This document shows, one piece after another, positions 35,586 through 44,260 of a stretch of DNA of 64,000 nucleotides; position 1 is the stretch's first letter; every line of letters begins with the position of its first letter. The DNA is taken from assembly GCF_018622995.1 (NCBI RefSeq), contig NZ_CP076022.1, forward strand, positions 1,240,001 through 1,304,000, in the 5' to 3' direction. Below the pieces are notes generated by a model. The model did no database searches. It had not been told where the DNA came from and worked only from the letters and a program-made list of their open reading frames with translations. The stretch comes from Arthrobacter jiangjiafuii. Lineage in GTDB: Bacteria > Actinomycetota > Actinomycetes > Actinomycetales > Micrococcaceae. The translations under genes were made by a program, and so were the position numbers.

Positions 35586-36125
35586 TCATCTGCCGTGGAA
35601 CAGCCGCCGCCGTTTTGCGAGCGGTTCCCGGGCAGGCGAGGGATCACGCCGGATCTCAAGGCGTTCAAGTTCATCAAACGGCACCTCACCGTGCCAGGTG
35701 CCCCGGTCAACCCGCCCGAACTCCGGCATGGACTCAATCGTCGGGCGCAGACGCTCCGAAAACCTGCTGATGTAGCCACTGATGCGTCTGCTGGACGGCA
35801 GATAGAGGAGAGCTCCCAGCTCCACGCCGTGCCACTGTGCAGTGCTCTGGCAATCAAAGACCTCGTCGGCTTGGCTGCGGTCGATCACCCGGGTGAGTTC
35901 AGTGCATCCCGTGCGCCAGGGGTGGGGTGCAAGCCGCCATTCGGGTCCAGGCATGTCCCCGTCGCCGCTGATGAGCGTCACCATGTCATTGCGCTGGCCG
36001 CTTCCCGGGAAGTTTCCAAGGCGACACGCGTACAACGCGCCTTGGAACCGCGCGAAAGTGCCGTATAGCGGCAATCCGCCCGGCAGGAAGGGCTCCCCTT
36101 GCGCATGTGGCGTGTCGTCGGTCAT
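35586..36125 (-). CDS. Hypothetical protein
   Basis: A 179-residue soluble protein, started at the ATG giving MTDDTPHAQGEPFLPG. It contains FARFQGALYACRLGNFPGSG, MVTLISGDGDMPGPEWRLAP and WHGEVPFDELERLEI. Charged, no membrane segment or signal. I recognise no domain. The frame is open upstream, but those residues look non-coding. It converges on pheT. Confidence 0.55.
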   Translation of the reverse strand: MTDDTPHAQGEPFLPGGLPLYGTFARFQGALYACRLGNFPGSGQRNDMVTLISGDGDMPGPEWRLAPHPWRTGCTELTRVIDRSQADEVFDCQSTAQWHGVELGALLYLPSSRRISGYISRFSERLRPTIESMPEFGRVDRGTWHGEVPFDELERLEIRRDPSPAREPLAKRRRLFHGR

Positions 36126-36246
36126 GGACACAGCCTGCCACGAATGAGCACCTGCCTCGTCCACGGTAGGTGCCCCTGGCGGTTCCCATCCGTGGGTCGT
36201 TGATACTGGCAGCAGGATCGCTGGTCCTGATTCCCGGGCTTTCCGG

Positions 36247-36525
36247 CTATGGATTATGCGCGGCCTCGTCTGGATCGCTGCCGCCGACAGCGCTGCGGCG
36301 CCTGGCCCGCCGCCACAACACAAACCACCCCGTCGCCAGAGCCAAGCTCACGACGGACATCACCAGCTGGAATGGGTCTCCGTCGCCTACAGGGAACAGC
36401 CAGATGGCCAGCCAGCCGAGGCCCAGTGCGAGCCAGGCGAGGGCCAACGCCTGCGGACTGGACAACCTACGCCGCTTTGGTGGTGTTGCCTGGCGGGCTG
36501 CGTCTGGCCCCTTTTCGTCATCCAT
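36247..36525 (-). CDS. Small two-helix membrane protein
   Basis: A 92-residue protein with a charged N-terminus (PPKRRRLSSPQ), two helices (ALALAWLALGLGWLAIWLF and QLVMSVVSLALATGWFVLW) and a basic then acidic tail. No family recognised. It diverges from the alpha/beta hydrolase gene. Confidence 0.55.
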   Translation of the reverse strand: MDDEKGPDAARQATPPKRRRLSSPQALALAWLALGLGWLAIWLFPVGDGDPFQLVMSVVSLALATGWFVLWRRARRRSAVGGSDPDEAAHNP

Positions 36526-36564
36526 CGGGCCACCCTAACTGAGCATCAACGGTGTTAGCGTTCA

Positions 36565-37383
36565 GTGGTGCATTCTGTGGAGTACGGTTCCGGAACCCCG
36601 TTGTTGCTGATCCATGGCTTCTGCCTTGATCACCGCTTGCTGCTCGGGCTGGACCCCGTTTTTGCCGCGGGAGGGTGGCGGCGTGTCTACCTTGATCTGC
36701 CCGGCATGGGACGGTCCGCCGCGGGACCCGGGATCAACGGCTCCGATTCCGTCGCGGAAGCCGTTGTCGACTTCGTGCGCAAGACCTTTGGACAAGAGAA
36801 GTTCGCGGTTCTGGGTAACTCCTTTGGCGGCATGATCGCCCGGCAACTTGTGGCCGAGTTCGGTGACCAGATCCTGGGCCTGGCGCTGCTGTGCCCGGTG
36901 GCAGTGGCGGAGCACAGCTCACGTGATGTCCCTGCGCAGACCGTACTGCACGCGGACCCGGTCCTGTTGGCAGGCCTGGACCAGTGGGAAGCGGCGGAGT
37001 ACCAATCCATGGCAGTTGTCCAGTCCCCGGAAAACTGGATACTTTTCCGCGATGCCGTGCTGCCCGGGCCACGGGCCTTTGACCCGGCCGCCATCGAGAG
37101 AATTTCCTCCACCTATTCCCTCGCCGTGGAGCCCGAGGCCCGATCAGCGCCGTTCCCTGGACCGACGCTGATCATCACGGGCCGGCAGGACCACGTCGTC
37201 GGGTTCCGGGACCACCTCGCCCTGCTGGACCACTACGTCCACGCCACTTTTATCGTCTTGGACCGTGCCGGGCACAACGCCCATTTGGATCAGCCCGAGC
37301 TCACCGAGGCCCTTCTCGCCGAGTGGCTGGGACGCATGGTGGAAAAGCTGGCAGCCACCCCCAGCGAAACCCTGCTTCACTGA
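36565..37383 (+). CDS. Alpha/beta hydrolase
   Basis: A 272-residue alpha/beta-fold hydrolase. LLLIHGFCLDH is the oxyanion-hole strand, the nucleophile elbow is GNSFGG (Ser 86), the acid is probably Asp in TGRQDHVVG and the His is in DRAGHNAHLDQPE. The substrate cannot be predicted. GTG start; a second GTG follows at once. Its stop overlaps by 7 bases the end of the GH114 gene on the other strand. Confidence 0.88.
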   Translation: MVHSVEYGSGTPLLLIHGFCLDHRLLLGLDPVFAAGGWRRVYLDLPGMGRSAAGPGINGSDSVAEAVVDFVRKTFGQEKFAVLGNSFGGMIARQLVAEFGDQILGLALLCPVAVAEHSSRDVPAQTVLHADPVLLAGLDQWEAAEYQSMAVVQSPENWILFRDAVLPGPRAFDPAAIERISSTYSLAVEPEARSAPFPGPTLIITGRQDHVVGFRDHLALLDHYVHATFIVLDRAGHNAHLDQPELTEALLAEWLGRMVEKLAATPSETLLH

Positions 37384-38240
37384 GCGGGTGCGTCCGGGCA
37401 GGCCTGCCTCGTTGATGACAGATCCAGCGGTTTGAGCAGCGAGGAGAACCCGCGCTGCCTGGACTCGGCGCAAAAGTCCAGGGCGCCGTCATACTCGACG
37501 TGCAGAACGGCTTTCCCCGCCTGGGTAAAAGGTTGGTACAGGTCGCATTCGTCATAGCGGACGCATTCCTCGTTCACGGCGAAGTCGAAGTGGTCCACGA
37601 GTTCGGGTATCTGGTCGACGTCGTTCTTCAGCCCGACCGACAGTCCGCGGGCGTGCGCCAACTCTGCCACTGCCCGGTTGTAGGCCAGCTGGTCCGCCGC
37701 CGTAAGCGGAAAGCCCGTCTCGTTTAGGTACCCGTCGACGTTATCGGGTTCGACGGCGTCGAAGCCCTTGGCCGCACAGATGTCCATCCGGGCCGCCATG
37801 ATCGGCAGGAGAACGTCCCTGCGGCGGATATCCAGCCAGCGTTCGTCCGGCCAGCCGTCCATGACCGCGCCGCGGGTTGATACCGGAAAACCGCCGGCGT
37901 CGCTCCGGAAATCCTCCCAGGAGCCGACGGAGAGGTAACAGACGGTATGCCGTCCCTGCTGCTTCAAAGCGGCGACTTCCGCTGGCGAGGTTGTTTCATA
38001 GTCGACATCGAAAATCTCTGCATCGACCGCGAGGTCCAGGGTGCCGCTGAGCTGCCACTGCCAGCTGGCAGCCGGTGCGGGCCGCCAATACGGGGCGTCG
38101 GCGACGGGCCGTTCCGCAGGCGATGCTGCGGTACCAGCAGCCGGGAAACCAACTGCCGGGGCGCCGGCCGGGGCACAGGCGGCCAGCGTCAGGGCGAGAA
38201 GTCCTGTTCCGACGCCCCACCAGAGAGCCCTCAACGGCAC
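37377..38240 (-). CDS. GH114-family lipoprotein (endo-alpha-1,4-polygalactosaminidase type)
   Basis: A 287-residue lipoprotein; the signal peptide ends with the lipobox LTLAAC. The rest is a GH114 barrel: WQWQLSGTLDLAVDAEIFDV, VCYLSVGSWEDFR, DGWPDERWLDIR, FDAVEPDNVDGYLNETGFPL and LSVGLKNDVDQIP. Candidate catalytic acids are Asp in IFDVDYE and Glu in VEPDN. GH114 and the related hydrolase domain of PelA cut alpha-1,4-galactosaminoglycans such as Pel. The GTG start overlaps the end of the upstream gene by 10 bases, so it is the last gene of the operon. It probably trims or releases the polymer outside the membrane. Confidence 0.88.
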   Translation of the reverse strand: MPLRALWWGVGTGLLALTLAACAPAGAPAVGFPAAGTAASPAERPVADAPYWRPAPAASWQWQLSGTLDLAVDAEIFDVDYETTSPAEVAALKQQGRHTVCYLSVGSWEDFRSDAGGFPVSTRGAVMDGWPDERWLDIRRRDVLLPIMAARMDICAAKGFDAVEPDNVDGYLNETGFPLTAADQLAYNRAVAELAHARGLSVGLKNDVDQIPELVDHFDFAVNEECVRYDECDLYQPFTQAGKAVLHVEYDGALDFCAESRQRGFSSLLKPLDLSSTRQACPDAPAQ

Positions 38241-38917
38241 GCCGGGGAAAGTCCTGCCCGGAGGCGGTCGGAAACAGCCGTTGGCGGCCCCAGCCAGGGA
38301 TTAGGCAGCGAGCGATCGGTGGCAAAGACATGACCGGCCCCGTGCTCGGCCGCAGTACGGCAGATGTCCGTCGTCTGCTCCGGAGCGCAGTCGTACACGA
38401 GATGCCACAGGCTGGACGGCGGGACGTCGCGTGCCCACCCAGGGTGCTTGAACCGTGCGTAGTCCGCCGCGGTTCCCTCGAAAACAGCAGTGACATCGAA
38501 CAAATCCAGATGCGCGGGCGAGGGGAACACCCCCGGGTTGGCAGCAAGGAAGGTGACTCCTGCGGCTCGGGCGGCCGCTGCGTATTCGGCGCACCGGGCC
38601 AGGCTCTGCGCAGACGTGGGAAGCTCATCCAACATGATTCCGCCTATCCGGTAGAGCCTTTGCCAGAGCGCAATCTCACGGGCAACGACAGCCACGGGCC
38701 GGTTGCCGTAGTCCACCGCCACATAGCCTAGCGTCCGGACACGAGTGAGCCCGGCCATGGCATCCGGATAATATGAATTCTCTTCAGCGCCCGGACCATT
38801 GTGGACATTGACGACGGCGAACGAGACATCCCGGTGCTGAGCGGCGAGCCAGGCCCAGTCCTGGGGAGCTGCTGCGGGATGCACGTACCAGGGAACCGCC
38901 AGCCGGGCCATCCTCAT
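38231..38917 (-). CDS. Spherulation-specific family 4 (spherulin-4-like) protein
   Basis: A 228-residue protein with the spherulin-4 pattern: LAVPWYVHPAAAPQDWAWL, FAVVNVHNGPG, RTLGYVAVDYGNRPVAVV and GIMLDELPTSAQSL. The fold is a TIM barrel related to GH135 (Sph3), which cleaves fungal galactosaminogalactan. There is no signal peptide, so it seems cytoplasmic or uses a non-classical route. ATGA overlaps with the genes before it. Within this operon it is likely to act on galactosamine-containing glycan or its lipid- or nucleotide-linked intermediates; that is inference. Confidence 0.8.
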   Translation of the reverse strand: MRMARLAVPWYVHPAAAPQDWAWLAAQHRDVSFAVVNVHNGPGAEENSYYPDAMAGLTRVRTLGYVAVDYGNRPVAVVAREIALWQRLYRIGGIMLDELPTSAQSLARCAEYAAAARAAGVTFLAANPGVFPSPAHLDLFDVTAVFEGTAADYARFKHPGWARDVPPSSLWHLVYDCAPEQTTDICRTAAEHGAGHVFATDRSLPNPWLGPPTAVSDRLRAGLSPACR

Positions 38918-40248
38918 GCGTAGGCCCGCGGGTCCGATACCCGAGCCAGAAGCACCACGATGCCCGCGACCAGGAAGACCATGGCCACGAGCATGCCGGG
39001 GATGTCTCCGAGCGTTACCCAGACCGCTGAGGAGAGGAAGGCTGCAGCGGCAAAAACCACGCCGCCGCGGGGCAGGCCAAAGGCTGCCAGTGTTGTGGCG
39101 GTCGTGGCCAGGGCGCTAAAGGCAGCGGCGACAATCACCGTTGCGGCCGCCCTGTGGTCCTCGACCATGAAAACGACAACAAGGATCGAGACAGATCCGG
39201 AGATCACCACGATTGCAGCCGACATCGCCATGGTGAGGGACCGTGCGTGCCGGGCCGCGTGGCGGAGCAGGGGCGTTCGGTTGGAGGACCACAACAGCCT
39301 TTGGCGCATAAGGACCAGGGCTGGATCGGTGGCTGCGGCGGCGACGACGGTCGCCACGACCAGGGCCGTTCCCTCCCATGCAGGTAGCCGGATGAGCGCT
39401 ATGGTCAGGGCAGCAGCCAGGAATCCGGCCTGGGCAGCCGGCGGAAGGGCAGCCCGCAGGTCGCCCGGATCCGGGGTTCGAGGTTCGCTCACCGTCCGCA
39501 GGTGTTTGGCCAGTGCCCCGGTGACTGCCGCGATGGCGAGGATGGCCAGGGTCAAGACGATTGCCGGGGCGGCCTGATGTCCCAGTGCCAGCGCCAGGAG
39601 CACTGCTGCAACGGCGATCGCCAGGACGGTGAGGAGGAACCGGGACCGACCCAGGATGACGAGCATCGACACCACGCAGGAGTACCAGCACCAAGCCATG
39701 ATGAGACCGGCCAAGGTTGCGTCGTGACGCGGCAGAAGTAGAAGAACTCCCAGAAAGCCGGCAAGGCCGAGCATGATGAGCAAAGCCGCCCCGGTACCGC
39801 GGGCGATGCCGCGGTCCAGCTGGCCTGCCCCCGCGTGCGCCCAGACGATGCCGGAGATCGATTGCCCGACGACCCAGGCGCTGATTCCGGCAATCAGGAC
39901 TTCGCGGGTGTTCGTCGCCATGACAGTTGCGGTGAGACCGCCAAGCACGGCACCGAGGATGAGGACAACGGCGCGGCAGACGGCATCGAGCAACGCAGCC
40001 CGCCCCAACCATCCCTGGAGTATCGGCGACGCCTGCGCCGGCTCCCGTACTACCTGCACGAGCGATTGTGCATATTCGAAGACATCGGTCGCACCATGGC
40101 GCCGGCGCACCGTGCGGTCGCTCAGGCCGGAGGCTTCCAGCCGCGCCGTGATTTCGAGCGCGTCGACGGCGTCGAAAGCAAGACGGTCATTAGCGAAGAC
40201 CGGAAGCGACTCACCGGAGGCGGGCACCACGACGCTGTCGGCGCTCAT
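38914..40248 (-). CDS. 12-helix membrane protein of the Pel-like operon
   Basis: A 444-residue protein. The first 110 residues are soluble (LAFDAVDALEITARLEASGL, GATDVFEYAQSLVQVVREPA) and are followed by about 12 hydrophobic helices. Length and helix number equal those of PelG, the putative flippase/exporter of Pel polysaccharide, but I see no direct sequence match to PelG. It may be an analogue or the membrane partner of the glycosyltransferase. It overlaps both neighbours by 4 bases (ATGA). Confidence 0.7.
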   Translation of the reverse strand: MSADSVVVPASGESLPVFANDRLAFDAVDALEITARLEASGLSDRTVRRRHGATDVFEYAQSLVQVVREPAQASPILQGWLGRAALLDAVCRAVVLILGAVLGGLTATVMATNTREVLIAGISAWVVGQSISGIVWAHAGAGQLDRGIARGTGAALLIMLGLAGFLGVLLLLPRHDATLAGLIMAWCWYSCVVSMLVILGRSRFLLTVLAIAVAAVLLALALGHQAAPAIVLTLAILAIAAVTGALAKHLRTVSEPRTPDPGDLRAALPPAAQAGFLAAALTIALIRLPAWEGTALVVATVVAAAATDPALVLMRQRLLWSSNRTPLLRHAARHARSLTMAMSAAIVVISGSVSILVVVFMVEDHRAAATVIVAAAFSALATTATTLAAFGLPRGGVVFAAAAFLSSAVWVTLGDIPGMLVAMVFLVAGIVVLLARVSDPRAYA

Positions 40249-41768
40249 GCCGACAACTCCAAACCGCTGGTCGCGGCAAGCGGGGACGCAGCTTCGGCCA
40301 GCCGCGAGGCCAGGCTGGGGACGGGTTCGAAGGGCCGCCGGGCATACGCCGCGGCGTATGCCTCCCGATACTGGGTGAGGCAGCGCTCCAAGGTGAATTC
40401 GGTGAGCGCCCGCTGTCTAGCAGCGGCACCCATGGAGGCGCGCAGCTCGTGGTCGCACAACAGGGTGACACAGGCCTCCGCGAATGCCACATGATCGCGG
40501 GCCGCAACAAGCATCCCCGTGCTCTGCTGCTCGTCGAGGCATTCCGACACGCCCCCGACGTCGGTGTTGACCGTGGCGCGTCCGCACATCATGGATTCAA
40601 TCAAGGTAAACGGCAGTCCTTCCGAAACGCTGGAGAGCGCCACCACGTGGCCGGCTTGGATCGCAGGGCGGCTCCCTTTACTCGGGCCTTCCCAATGCAC
40701 TGCATCGGCGACGCCGAGAGTCTGGGCCAGAGCCACCAGAAGTGCCTTGTAGGCAGCGTTCTCTGCAGGGGTAGGGCCGAAGATGCGCAGCTGTGCGGCC
40801 GGCACCCGCTCCCGAACCAGGGCAAACGCAGATATGAGGGTCTCCAGGTCCTTGAGGGGATCAATACGCCCCACAAAGCTAATGGTCGGTACCGCGGGTT
40901 CGCTGGTGACGGGCGGAAACTTTGCGGGGTCGACACCGTTGGAAATGGTGTGGATCCGGGAGGGGAGGGCCCCCAGTCTCCGTTCCCACCGGGCATTGAA
41001 CTGATTCACGGGGAGGACGAGATGGGCGTGCACATGAACCACTTGGCAGAGCCTGCGCAGGAAGGCCGTTACGGTGCGCCGCACCGGCCAGGACAGATTG
41101 GCCCCATGCAGTGCCAGATAGCGCTCGCGGAGATACACGCCGTGCTCCGTCAGCAGGATCGGGGTGCCGTGCCGCCATGAGTGAGCGAGCGCAACCAGCG
41201 ATGAAGGACCGTTGCTGGAGGCATGGATGACATCCACCTCTCCCAGATGATGGTCGATGAGGGCAAGGGCACGGTCCACAATTCCCGCAGCCATGACGGC
41301 GTCAGCCACAGACATTGGCGCTTCGCCCGCAGCCGGGGAATGGCGGGACCAGGCGTTGAGGATGGGGGCGACCGATCCCCGGGCCGCCAGCGAGTGGGCC
41401 AATCCGACTCGGTCACTGATGCCGACGAGCTGCAGCAAAGCGTTGCTGGTCCGGCCAACCGGATCGTCGCCGTCCGGGCCCAACGCGGCATCCCACAGTT
41501 CAACGAGTGCATCCTGAGTGGTGTCGATCCATTTCCGCCGCCTTGGACCGGGGCGGAGCGGGGACGCCGTAGCCCCCCACACCGGGATCATGCGCACTGC
41601 GCGGACATTCGGGGGTACTTCCCAAACCGCCTTGCTGACGCCGCTGCCGGTCAGGGCCACGACGTCAAAGGTGTAATCGGGCAGGCCGTTCAGCAACTGA
41701 TCACACCAGGTGCTGACCCCGCCGGTGACGATTGGATAGGTTCCTTCGGTAATCAGAGCTACCTTCAC
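40245..41768 (-). CDS. pelF: PelF-like GT4 glycosyltransferase
   Basis: A 507-residue GT4 enzyme with the PelF-type N-terminal (DUF3492) region: VALITEGTYPIVTGGVSTWC and DVIHASSNGPSSLVALAHSW, then TPILLTEHGVYLRER. The C-terminal Rossmann half has ISFVGRIDPLKDLETLISAF, LSSVSEGLPFTLIESMMCGR and TDVGGVSECL. PelF polymerises Pel polysaccharide from a UDP-sugar. The GTG at 41768 gives the usual beginning. Another GTG at 41810 would add 14 residues and overlap the stop of a 16-codon upstream reading frame. First gene of the operon. Confidence 0.88.
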   Translation of the reverse strand: MKVALITEGTYPIVTGGVSTWCDQLLNGLPDYTFDVVALTGSGVSKAVWEVPPNVRAVRMIPVWGATASPLRPGPRRRKWIDTTQDALVELWDAALGPDGDDPVGRTSNALLQLVGISDRVGLAHSLAARGSVAPILNAWSRHSPAAGEAPMSVADAVMAAGIVDRALALIDHHLGEVDVIHASSNGPSSLVALAHSWRHGTPILLTEHGVYLRERYLALHGANLSWPVRRTVTAFLRRLCQVVHVHAHLVLPVNQFNARWERRLGALPSRIHTISNGVDPAKFPPVTSEPAVPTISFVGRIDPLKDLETLISAFALVRERVPAAQLRIFGPTPAENAAYKALLVALAQTLGVADAVHWEGPSKGSRPAIQAGHVVALSSVSEGLPFTLIESMMCGRATVNTDVGGVSECLDEQQSTGMLVAARDHVAFAEACVTLLCDHELRASMGAAARQRALTEFTLERCLTQYREAYAAAYARRPFEPVPSLASRLAEAASPLAATSGLELSA

Positions 41769-41806
41769 ACCGCGGTCTTCGGCTCGCGGGCGAGCCCGGG
41801 GCGGCT

Positions 41807-41857
41807 TCACGCTCCCACACGGAAGTGGGCATGGGACTTGGAGGTTGAACGCGGCAT
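41807..41857 (-). CDS. Possible 16-residue leader reading frame before pelF-like gene
   Basis: ATG to TGA encoding MPRSTSKSHAHFRVGA, with GAAGG 7 bases upstream. Its TGA overlaps an in-frame GTG of the glycosyltransferase. It could couple translation or be chance. The rest of the gap to 42093 shows no gene or clear promoter. Confidence 0.3.
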   Translation of the reverse strand: MPRSTSKSHAHFRVGA

Positions 41858-42092
41858 TTCGAGACCTTCTAATGGATCGACGGGACTGAGACACCATTAG
41901 ATAGGCCGCGGTTGGATGGTTCACGAGTAGCAACTACGCGGTCAGTACGCTCGCTGGATGCAACCTACGTATTGACAGCCATGCTTGCCCTTCAGCACGA
42001 CCCATCCCGAGAAAACTACTCAGTCGCCGGGAACTGCCACTACCCGGGAACCCCGGCCTGCGGGCACCAGGAAGAGGAGCCCGCCGCTCTCC

Positions 42093-43058
42093 TTACGGAA
42101 GCAGCAGCACCTTGCCCGTGGTCTTCCGCCCCTCCAGGTCCTCCTGCGCCCGTGCGGCCTCGGCCAGCGGATAGGTGGCGCCGATCCGGACGTCCAGTGA
42201 ACCGTCACGGACCATCTCAAAGAGCTCATGCGCCCGCCACTGCCGTTCCTCCGGAGTCAGCAGGTAATCGCCCAGCGTGGGCCGGGTCAGGTAAAGCGAG
42301 CCCGCCGCATTGAGCCGTTGGATGTCGAAAGGCGGCACCTGTCCCGAGGCGCCCCCGAACAGCACCAGCATGCCCCGCCTGCGCAGGCTGGCCAGGGAAC
42401 CGTCAAACGTCGCCTTCCCCACGCCGTCGTACACCACGTCCACGCCCCTGCCATCGGTCAGCTGCCGGACCTCGTCGGCGAACCCCTCGTAACCGAGGGT
42501 GTGGTCGGCTCCGGCGCCGCGGGCCAGCTCCCGCTTCTCCTCGGAGGAAGCGGTGGTGATGACGGTGGCACCCTTTGCCTTGAGCAGCTGGATCAGGAGC
42601 AGCCCGACGCCGCCGGCACCGGCGTGCGTCAGGACCGTCTGGCCTTCCTCCACATTGAAGGTGGAGTTGCACAGGTAATGGGCGGTCATGCCCTGCATCG
42701 GCAGCGCCGCGGCAATCTCGTTGCCGACGCCGTCCGGAACGGGCAGTGCCTTGTCCGCTTCCATGATGGTGTATTCGGAGTAGGTGCCGCCGCCCTCCGC
42801 AGTGGCCACGCGGTCGCCTTCACGGAAGTTGGCCACGTTCAGTCCCACGGCAATCACGGTCCCTGCCGCTTCCACGCCGGGAATGAACGGGTACTGCATA
42901 GGGTAGATGCCGCTGCGCTTGTACGTGTCAATGAAGTTCACCCCGACGGCGGCAACCCGCACCAGGAGTTCGTTGGGGCCGGGCTCGGGCAGCGCCACGT
43001 CTTCGAAGCGCAGGATTTCGGGACCGCCCGGGGCGGGGACCACAGTAGCTTTATGCAT
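42093..43058 (-). CDS. Zinc-independent NADPH:quinone oxidoreductase (QOR family)
   Basis: A 321-residue medium-chain dehydrogenase/reductase of the QOR type. VGVNFIDTYKRSGIYP is the family signature; NADPH binding is AGAGGVGLLLIQLLKAKGA. The structural zinc cysteines of alcohol dehydrogenases are missing. Probably reduces quinones or unsaturated carbonyls. It diverges from argC over 171 bases. Confidence 0.92.
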   Translation of the reverse strand: MHKATVVPAPGGPEILRFEDVALPEPGPNELLVRVAAVGVNFIDTYKRSGIYPMQYPFIPGVEAAGTVIAVGLNVANFREGDRVATAEGGGTYSEYTIMEADKALPVPDGVGNEIAAALPMQGMTAHYLCNSTFNVEEGQTVLTHAGAGGVGLLLIQLLKAKGATVITTASSEEKRELARGAGADHTLGYEGFADEVRQLTDGRGVDVVYDGVGKATFDGSLASLRRRGMLVLFGGASGQVPPFDIQRLNAAGSLYLTRPTLGDYLLTPEERQWRAHELFEMVRDGSLDVRIGATYPLAEAARAQEDLEGRKTTGKVLLLP

Positions 43059-43176
43059 GGAACGTCTCTTCTGTCGCAGGCATCAATGTCGCTGCCATCG
43101 TAGGGCAGCAGCCCGGAACGGCGCACCGCGCATCCGTTCTGTGGACACTGCGGACAGGGAAATCGGCACCCCGCGT

Positions 43177-43210
43177 CATGAATGCATAATTATGAAGGTG
43201 TCTGCATAAA
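43177..43210 (+). promoter_or_regulatory. Putative ArgR operator (two ARG-box-like half pairs)
   Basis: TGCATAA occurs at 43183 and again at 43203, 20 bases (two helical turns) apart, within A/T-rich sequence beginning ATGAATGCATAATTATGAA. This is 20-50 bases before argC. The operon's own argR product is the likely ligand; binding is inferred. Confidence 0.6.
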
Positions 43211-43220
43211 ACTGCTGTAG

Positions 43221-44260
<1,040 letters not shown>

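Follow-up and report, generated by a model that had tools for sequence, protein, structure and literature searches.

The galactosaminogalactan (GAG) cluster of Aspergillus comprises uge3, gtb3, sph3, ega3 and agd3. According to PMC12054363, Sph3 is required for GAG production and is thought to act outside the cell, at the exit of the synthase, and the fungal relative of the GH135 analysed here is specific for fully acetylated polymer. Ega3, a GH114 enzyme, is specific for deacetylated regions according to PMC7229062; the same 2020 paper describes bacterial agd3/GAG-like operons with a cytoplasmic glycosyltransferase (GT), a multi-spanning membrane protein and a GH114 protein, and with spherulin-4 in some Actinobacteria. 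The Gram-positive Pel operon is given as pelDEA-DA-FG in PMC7112168. Here we analyse a four-gene operon of Arthrobacter jiangjiafuii in a stretch of 64,000 nucleotides (the window) of contig NZ_CP076022.1, from a genome that consists of one contig of 3.59 Mb. We favor, with moderate confidence, the reading that this is a GAG/Pel-like operon for an exopolysaccharide, of the agd3 type seen in Actinobacteria, from which Agd3 has been lost.

The four genes lie on the minus strand in the order GT, membrane protein (MP), GH135 and GH114. In the open reading frames (ORFs) of the window they overlap by 4, 4 and 10 bases, just as a sequence-only reading had claimed. The first product matches DUF3492 (151.6 bits) and, with 161.5 bits, passes the cut-off of 100 of the NCBIfam PelF equivalog NF038011, which upholds its earlier assignment as a PelF-type glycosyltransferase. 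The two hydrolases are of distinct galactosaminidase types, again as claimed. GH135 matches Pfam Spherulin4 (113 bits) and the Sph3 structure 5c5g (E 1.5e-12), and GH114 matches its Pfam family (292 bits) and the Ega3 structure 6ojb (E 8.7e-55). The N-terminus of GH114 is hydrophobic and has the lipobox LAAC. Its catalytic pair in the 6ojb alignment is D166/E224, equivalent to Asp189/Glu247, the Ega3 residues named in PMC12054363. This pair is retained in 25/25 of the census rows that cover it (7/32 rows do not), and 26/32 rows have a start giving a hydrophobic stretch, with a lipobox by our own pattern in 20/32.

Linkage of the four genes, whose lack in related genomes would have refuted the sequence-only reading, is conserved in 10 other Arthrobacter genomes, beyond what chance would give. 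The order is common to all 11 Arthrobacter loci (the window and 10 relatives), and all ten relatives have the GT. MP and GH135 each occur in 11 of 29 Arthrobacter genomes, and the 11 are identical; GH114 occurs in those 11 and in three more. At that sensitivity, MP was found in no genus other than Arthrobacter among 59 genomes of 30 genera, and four named MP loci, including those of A. gandavensis and A. yangruifuii, are all from Arthrobacter. With flanking genes named by our own reading of the sequence, the qor-like/argC flank of the window recurs in six relatives; a seventh, located at the edge of a contig, has the pheT flank in common with it, and the other three are at different places. 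One relative (G002, locus L038) has additional genes between GH135 and GH114; these are TetR-like, membrane and oxidoreductase-like genes and not a deacetylase, as judged by eye from an ORF list without a family scan. No GT relative was confirmed in viral contigs.

In a class-wide search, 31 of 394 genomes had Spherulin4 and at least 39 had MP relatives, some recognised by the N-terminal part only; this latter count is a lower bound, four first-look candidates having been scored per genome. Profiles run on 67 loci placed GT, MP and GH135 in that order in 51. The arrangement GT-MP-GH135-GH114 was found at 13 loci (the 11 of Arthrobacter, L116, whose agd3 is on the opposite strand, and L152), agd3-GT-MP-GH135 at 13, agd3-GT-MP-GH135-GH114 at 12 and GT-MP-GH135 at 12; L123 has two GH114 genes with agd3 after GH135, and the remaining 16 are partial or solo. 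Because these loci were taken at fixed distances, and some are truncated, failing to see a gene at an edge does not prove that it is absent. In about 10 kb of additional upstream sequence for L152 and L160 (L192, L193), no agd3 was found. Several loci have a pair of epimerase-family genes and a nucleotidyltransferase gene between MP and GH135 (the L118 copies were family-scanned).

A family scan of the four operon proteins and the downstream hydrolase found no deacetylase domain, in line with the earlier statement that a PelA deacetylase is missing from the operon. In relatives, the GT is preceded by a secreted protein, about 700 residues long, which is a divergent Agd3. Its CE18 matches in L115, L116, L118, L119 and L132 do not reach the curated cut-off, with CBM87 ahead in 3/5, and a relative in L117 passes both cut-offs. 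The Pfam Agd3 model alone gave no match in the genus or the controls, and in a further search it matched only 2/55 genomes. Our absence claim rests instead on an Agd3-like profile built from seven operon-linked or nearby proteins. This profile matches 24/30 of the other genomes with a Spherulin4 gene, 6 of the 24 being profile sources, and 0/29 Arthrobacter genomes, where one or two candidates were left unscored in three operon-less genomes. In the GT tree, the Arthrobacter sequences cluster with GTs from agd3-bearing operons, in a clade separate from four GTs that adjoin PelG (100/100). Since they adjoin the agd3-bearing L115 (100/99) and next L116 (97/86), the simplest history is one of loss in Arthrobacter. 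Agd3 seems to have been lost in this genus.

The earlier statement that GH135 has no signal peptide held, as the open frame contains no ATG, GTG or TTG before its ATG. We regard the wider occurrence of this feature as our most useful new point. Among 56 loci with GH135 beside GT or MP, 54 are of the non-PelG type, and 53 of these 54 have no start codon yielding an upstream hydrophobic stretch (L161 has a marginal alternative start), whereas both PelG-type loci, from one genus, have a GH135 with a clear signal. The 56 loci are not independent: 11 are from Arthrobacter, most others are from genus g57, and some genomes contribute two. The signal measure fits GH135, whose model begins at Met, and not GH114 or Agd3, whose aligned region contains the signal. 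Of six unlinked GH135 genes, two have a hydrophobic stretch (L122, L151), L150 has one further upstream, two have none and one is a fragment. L116 has a second GH135 apart from its operon, and this one looks secreted as well.

The catalytic pair of GH135, by alignment to Sph3, is D97 and E147. In 5c5g they correspond to residues 116 and 172, and an offset of 50 on that numbering gives Asp166 and Glu222. We take Asp166 to be the catalytic position of Sph3, and a printed Asp196 to be a misprint. The form in print, in PMC12054363, is Asp196/Glu222. D97, E98 and E147 are invariant across the 11 Arthrobacter copies. In a set of 62 copies, Asp97 is retained in 58 and Glu147 in 49, while Glu98, beside Asp97, is retained in 15 and is otherwise mostly Arg or Gln. 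The 13 copies that have lost Glu147, the acid/base residue, comprise 12 of a streptomycete-like type with neither agd3 nor GH114, and L181. They belong to L127, L128, L154, L162, L166-L170, L172, L174, L175 and L181, and in the stretch covered none of the 13 loci has agd3 or GH114. All are GT-MP-GH135 loci except L174 (no MP match) and L181 (MP and GH135 alone, where the contig ends), and in L127 a family scan found an epimerase-family gene separating MP from GH135. In these loci GH135 is possibly non-catalytic.

MP gave no match in Pfam, NCBIfam or PDB sequences. The earlier description of a 12-helix membrane protein stands as to a multi-spanning protein; as to the number, a hydropathy scan finds 11 segments and 12 long helices were counted, after about 75 residues of N-terminal extension, in a structure model of low confidence (pLDDT 56.7, pTM 0.47). 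A relation to PelG was not detectable. hhalign of MP against PelG gave a probability of 0.1% (E 0.74), so we reject MP as PelG on sequence, and a search of the genome with PelG (PF16933) found no match. Foldseek and VIA-align, in a comparison that took in no PelG structure, match the weak model to MATE, WzxE and MurJ and show a MOP-like fold for it. PelG is assigned to the MOP class. The model weakly suggests a MOP-superfamily flippase fold for MP, and we propose MP as a candidate exporter, without a Pfam or NCBIfam match, in the position that PelG holds elsewhere.

We propose the following mechanism from these gene identities. The cytosolic PelF-type GT would use UDP-GalNAc to polymerise GalNAc into an alpha-1,4 chain, which the MOP-like MP would carry out of the cell. 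GH135, specific for acetylated polymer, would trim or clear chains stalled in the cytosol, and the lipoprotein GH114 would cut galactosamine-rich polymer outside. The product would probably carry little or no deacetylation. Whether a polymer-cutting enzyme works inside the cell during synthesis is now a testable question.

Several points weigh against this reading. The polymer itself is predicted from the genes. L115 and L116, the neighbors of Arthrobacter in the GT tree, were flagged by the tool as long branches, which weakens the tree. The MP model is of low confidence, only two of its Foldseek matches reach E 0.001, and MP gives zero sequence signal against PelG. A cruder signal measure, which counts the first residues of GH135 itself, exceeds 1.7 (a threshold of our choice) in eight linked loci, and non-classical export of GH135 is possible. 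GH114 is awkward where no deacetylase is present, because enzymes of the Ega3 type are specific for deacetylated regions, and it may not serve this polymer, as it is solo in three Arthrobacter genomes that have no MP or GH135 (L039, L040 and L041). In G010 and G026 the solo GH114 is at the usual pheT-qor place of the operon, and tblastn for GT, MP and GH135 remnants beside solo GH114 gave only weak matches (E of at least 0.066). The median net charge of GH114 is -23.5 in Arthrobacter (10 rows) and -5.5 in agd3-linked loci (14 rows), with 7/32 rows dropped as short. The control for charge is weak: the window proteins are generally acidic, and of its five secreted-like calls some are visibly mis-started. 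The acidity of the Arthrobacter enzyme suggests a cationic substrate; we had considered an adaptation of GH114 to neutral polymer and rejected it, as the charge went the opposite way. Either an unrecognised or unlinked deacetylase is present, or GH114 acts on the polymer of other organisms; that it stands alone in three genomes agrees with the latter.

The alternative that survives best is that of a normal GAG-like system in which a single gene lies apart from the rest, an unlinked CE4 or unrecognised enzyme partly deacetylating the polymer as usual. The retention of a very acidic GH114 beside the operon speaks for it, and CE4 matches, found in 14/29 Arthrobacter genomes, occur in 7/11 operon genomes (the window's own included; one is a short fragment), where they could deacetylate in trans, a further point against our main reading. 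However, at E 0.001 four of the 11 (G002, G008, G009 and G019) give no match to CE4, none of the 29 Arthrobacter genomes has an Agd3-like match, and CE4 does not track the operon, because 7/18 genomes without it also match. We consider this alternative unlikely. A different polymer, with both hydrolases recruited for other linkages, is conceivable since GT4 donors vary, and we think it improbable. The GT clade is well apart from the four GTs that adjoin PelG, and the nucleotidyltransferase and two epimerase-family genes of the operon type of L118 hint that other nucleotide sugars may serve there, but the GT is above the PelF cut-off, GH135 and GH114 retain the catalytic residues of GalNAc/GalN-specific enzymes, and their pairing recurs. 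A reduced canonical operon of PelF-PelG type that has lost PelD, PelE and PelA would account for the PelF match, for MP directly after GT like PelG in L188 and L189 and for the MOP-like model, but it is the least probable of the three, given no PelG match in the genome, the negligible profile probability, and nearest operons that hold agd3-like genes, GH135 and GH114.

The reading as an agd3-type operon without Agd3 could be extended, and we do so only tentatively, as the extension is itself rather doubtful. For the export of GalNAc polymers, actinobacteria may have a second route that does not depend on PelG; in it, a dedicated cytosolic endo-GalNAcase, coupled to a MOP-type exporter, would serve as a chain-length or anti-clogging factor. 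In Arthrobacter, deacetylation would have been dropped to give a neutral poly-GalNAc, and the extracellular GH114 would be aimed at the cationic galactosamine polymers of others.

The 5' end of the operon had been placed at 41857, and this we correct. The ATG there is preceded by a Shine-Dalgarno-like AGAAGG and does not share the reading frame of the GT; the conserved GT reading begins at GTG 41768, the likely start, with additional in-frame starts up to 41933. The Shine-Dalgarno-like site and ATG (41807-41857, minus strand) have the same place in relatives. The ATG is in frame with the GT in three of them (L038, L042 and L048) and out of frame in the window and the others, and the short upstream frame terminates on the GT start in six relatives. 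It is a possible coupled leader ORF. The block GCGTACTGACCGCGTAGTTGCTACTCGTGA at 41921-41950 (minus strand), partly conserved in Arthrobacter upstream regions, is a possible promoter or operator. Rfam gave no match at the gathering threshold in 36000-43500. The features are listed in Table 1.

Table 1. Features of the operon and its upstream region, in window positions
Feature	Position	Strand	Details
PelF-family GT4 glycosyltransferase, proposed polymerase	40245..41768	-	507 aa, GTG start
Multi-TM (transmembrane) membrane protein (MP), proposed exporter	38914..40248	-	444 aa
GH135 (spherulin-4/Sph3-like), without signal peptide	38231..38917	-	228 aa
GH114 (Ega3-like), lipoprotein by lipobox	37377..38240	-	287 aa
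Upstream intergenic region, block partly conserved	41769..42092	-	alignment of 11 upstream regions

A genus from another part of the phylum has two loci (L188 and L189, about 4.9-14.1 kb) in which a PelF-like GT and a true PelG are accompanied by a clear homologue of Agd3 and by a GH135 that carries an export signal. Each is a Pel/GAG hybrid cluster, and in L188 a GAF-GGDEF protein is encoded ahead of the cluster genes.

Searches of the open-licence PMC literature gave no title or abstract on such an Arthrobacter operon or on a cytosolic GH135. The sequence-only reading had taken the locus for a minimal, possibly c-di-GMP-independent Pel system. As in Gram-positive Pel (PMC7112168), a PelF-family GT gene adjoins the gene of a multi-TM protein. 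Unlike that operon, the Arthrobacter operon has no PelA and no detectable PelG, and its hydrolases are of other families; neither PelD, the c-di-GMP receptor, nor PelE was seen by eye among neighboring ORFs, and no genome-wide search for them was made. The closest systems are the agd3/GAG-like operons. MP is not detectably PelG, and the nearest relatives have a deacetylase that is Agd3/CE18-like and not PelA. Our analysis moves the operon from Pel to the GAG/Agd3 lineage common to bacteria and fungi. The GT4, multi-TM protein and GH114 of the bacterial agd3 operons, with spherulin-4 in some, as outlined in PMC7229062, are all present here, and many related loci keep their order. The differences are the absence of agd3 from the Arthrobacter operon, with no Agd3-like match in the 29 genomes of the genus, and the finding of this analysis that GH135 has no signal peptide in the linked loci. 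With the Aspergillus GAG cluster the operon shares a GT and homologues of Sph3 and Ega3, the fungal enzymes being the best solved-structure matches, in a comparison that did not extend to the fungal synthase; it differs in having a separate membrane protein and no deacetylase found. Fungal GH135 is membrane-bound and extracellular, whereas that of Arthrobacter has no export signal. This four-gene bacterial version would allow the role of an Sph3-type enzyme to be dissected.
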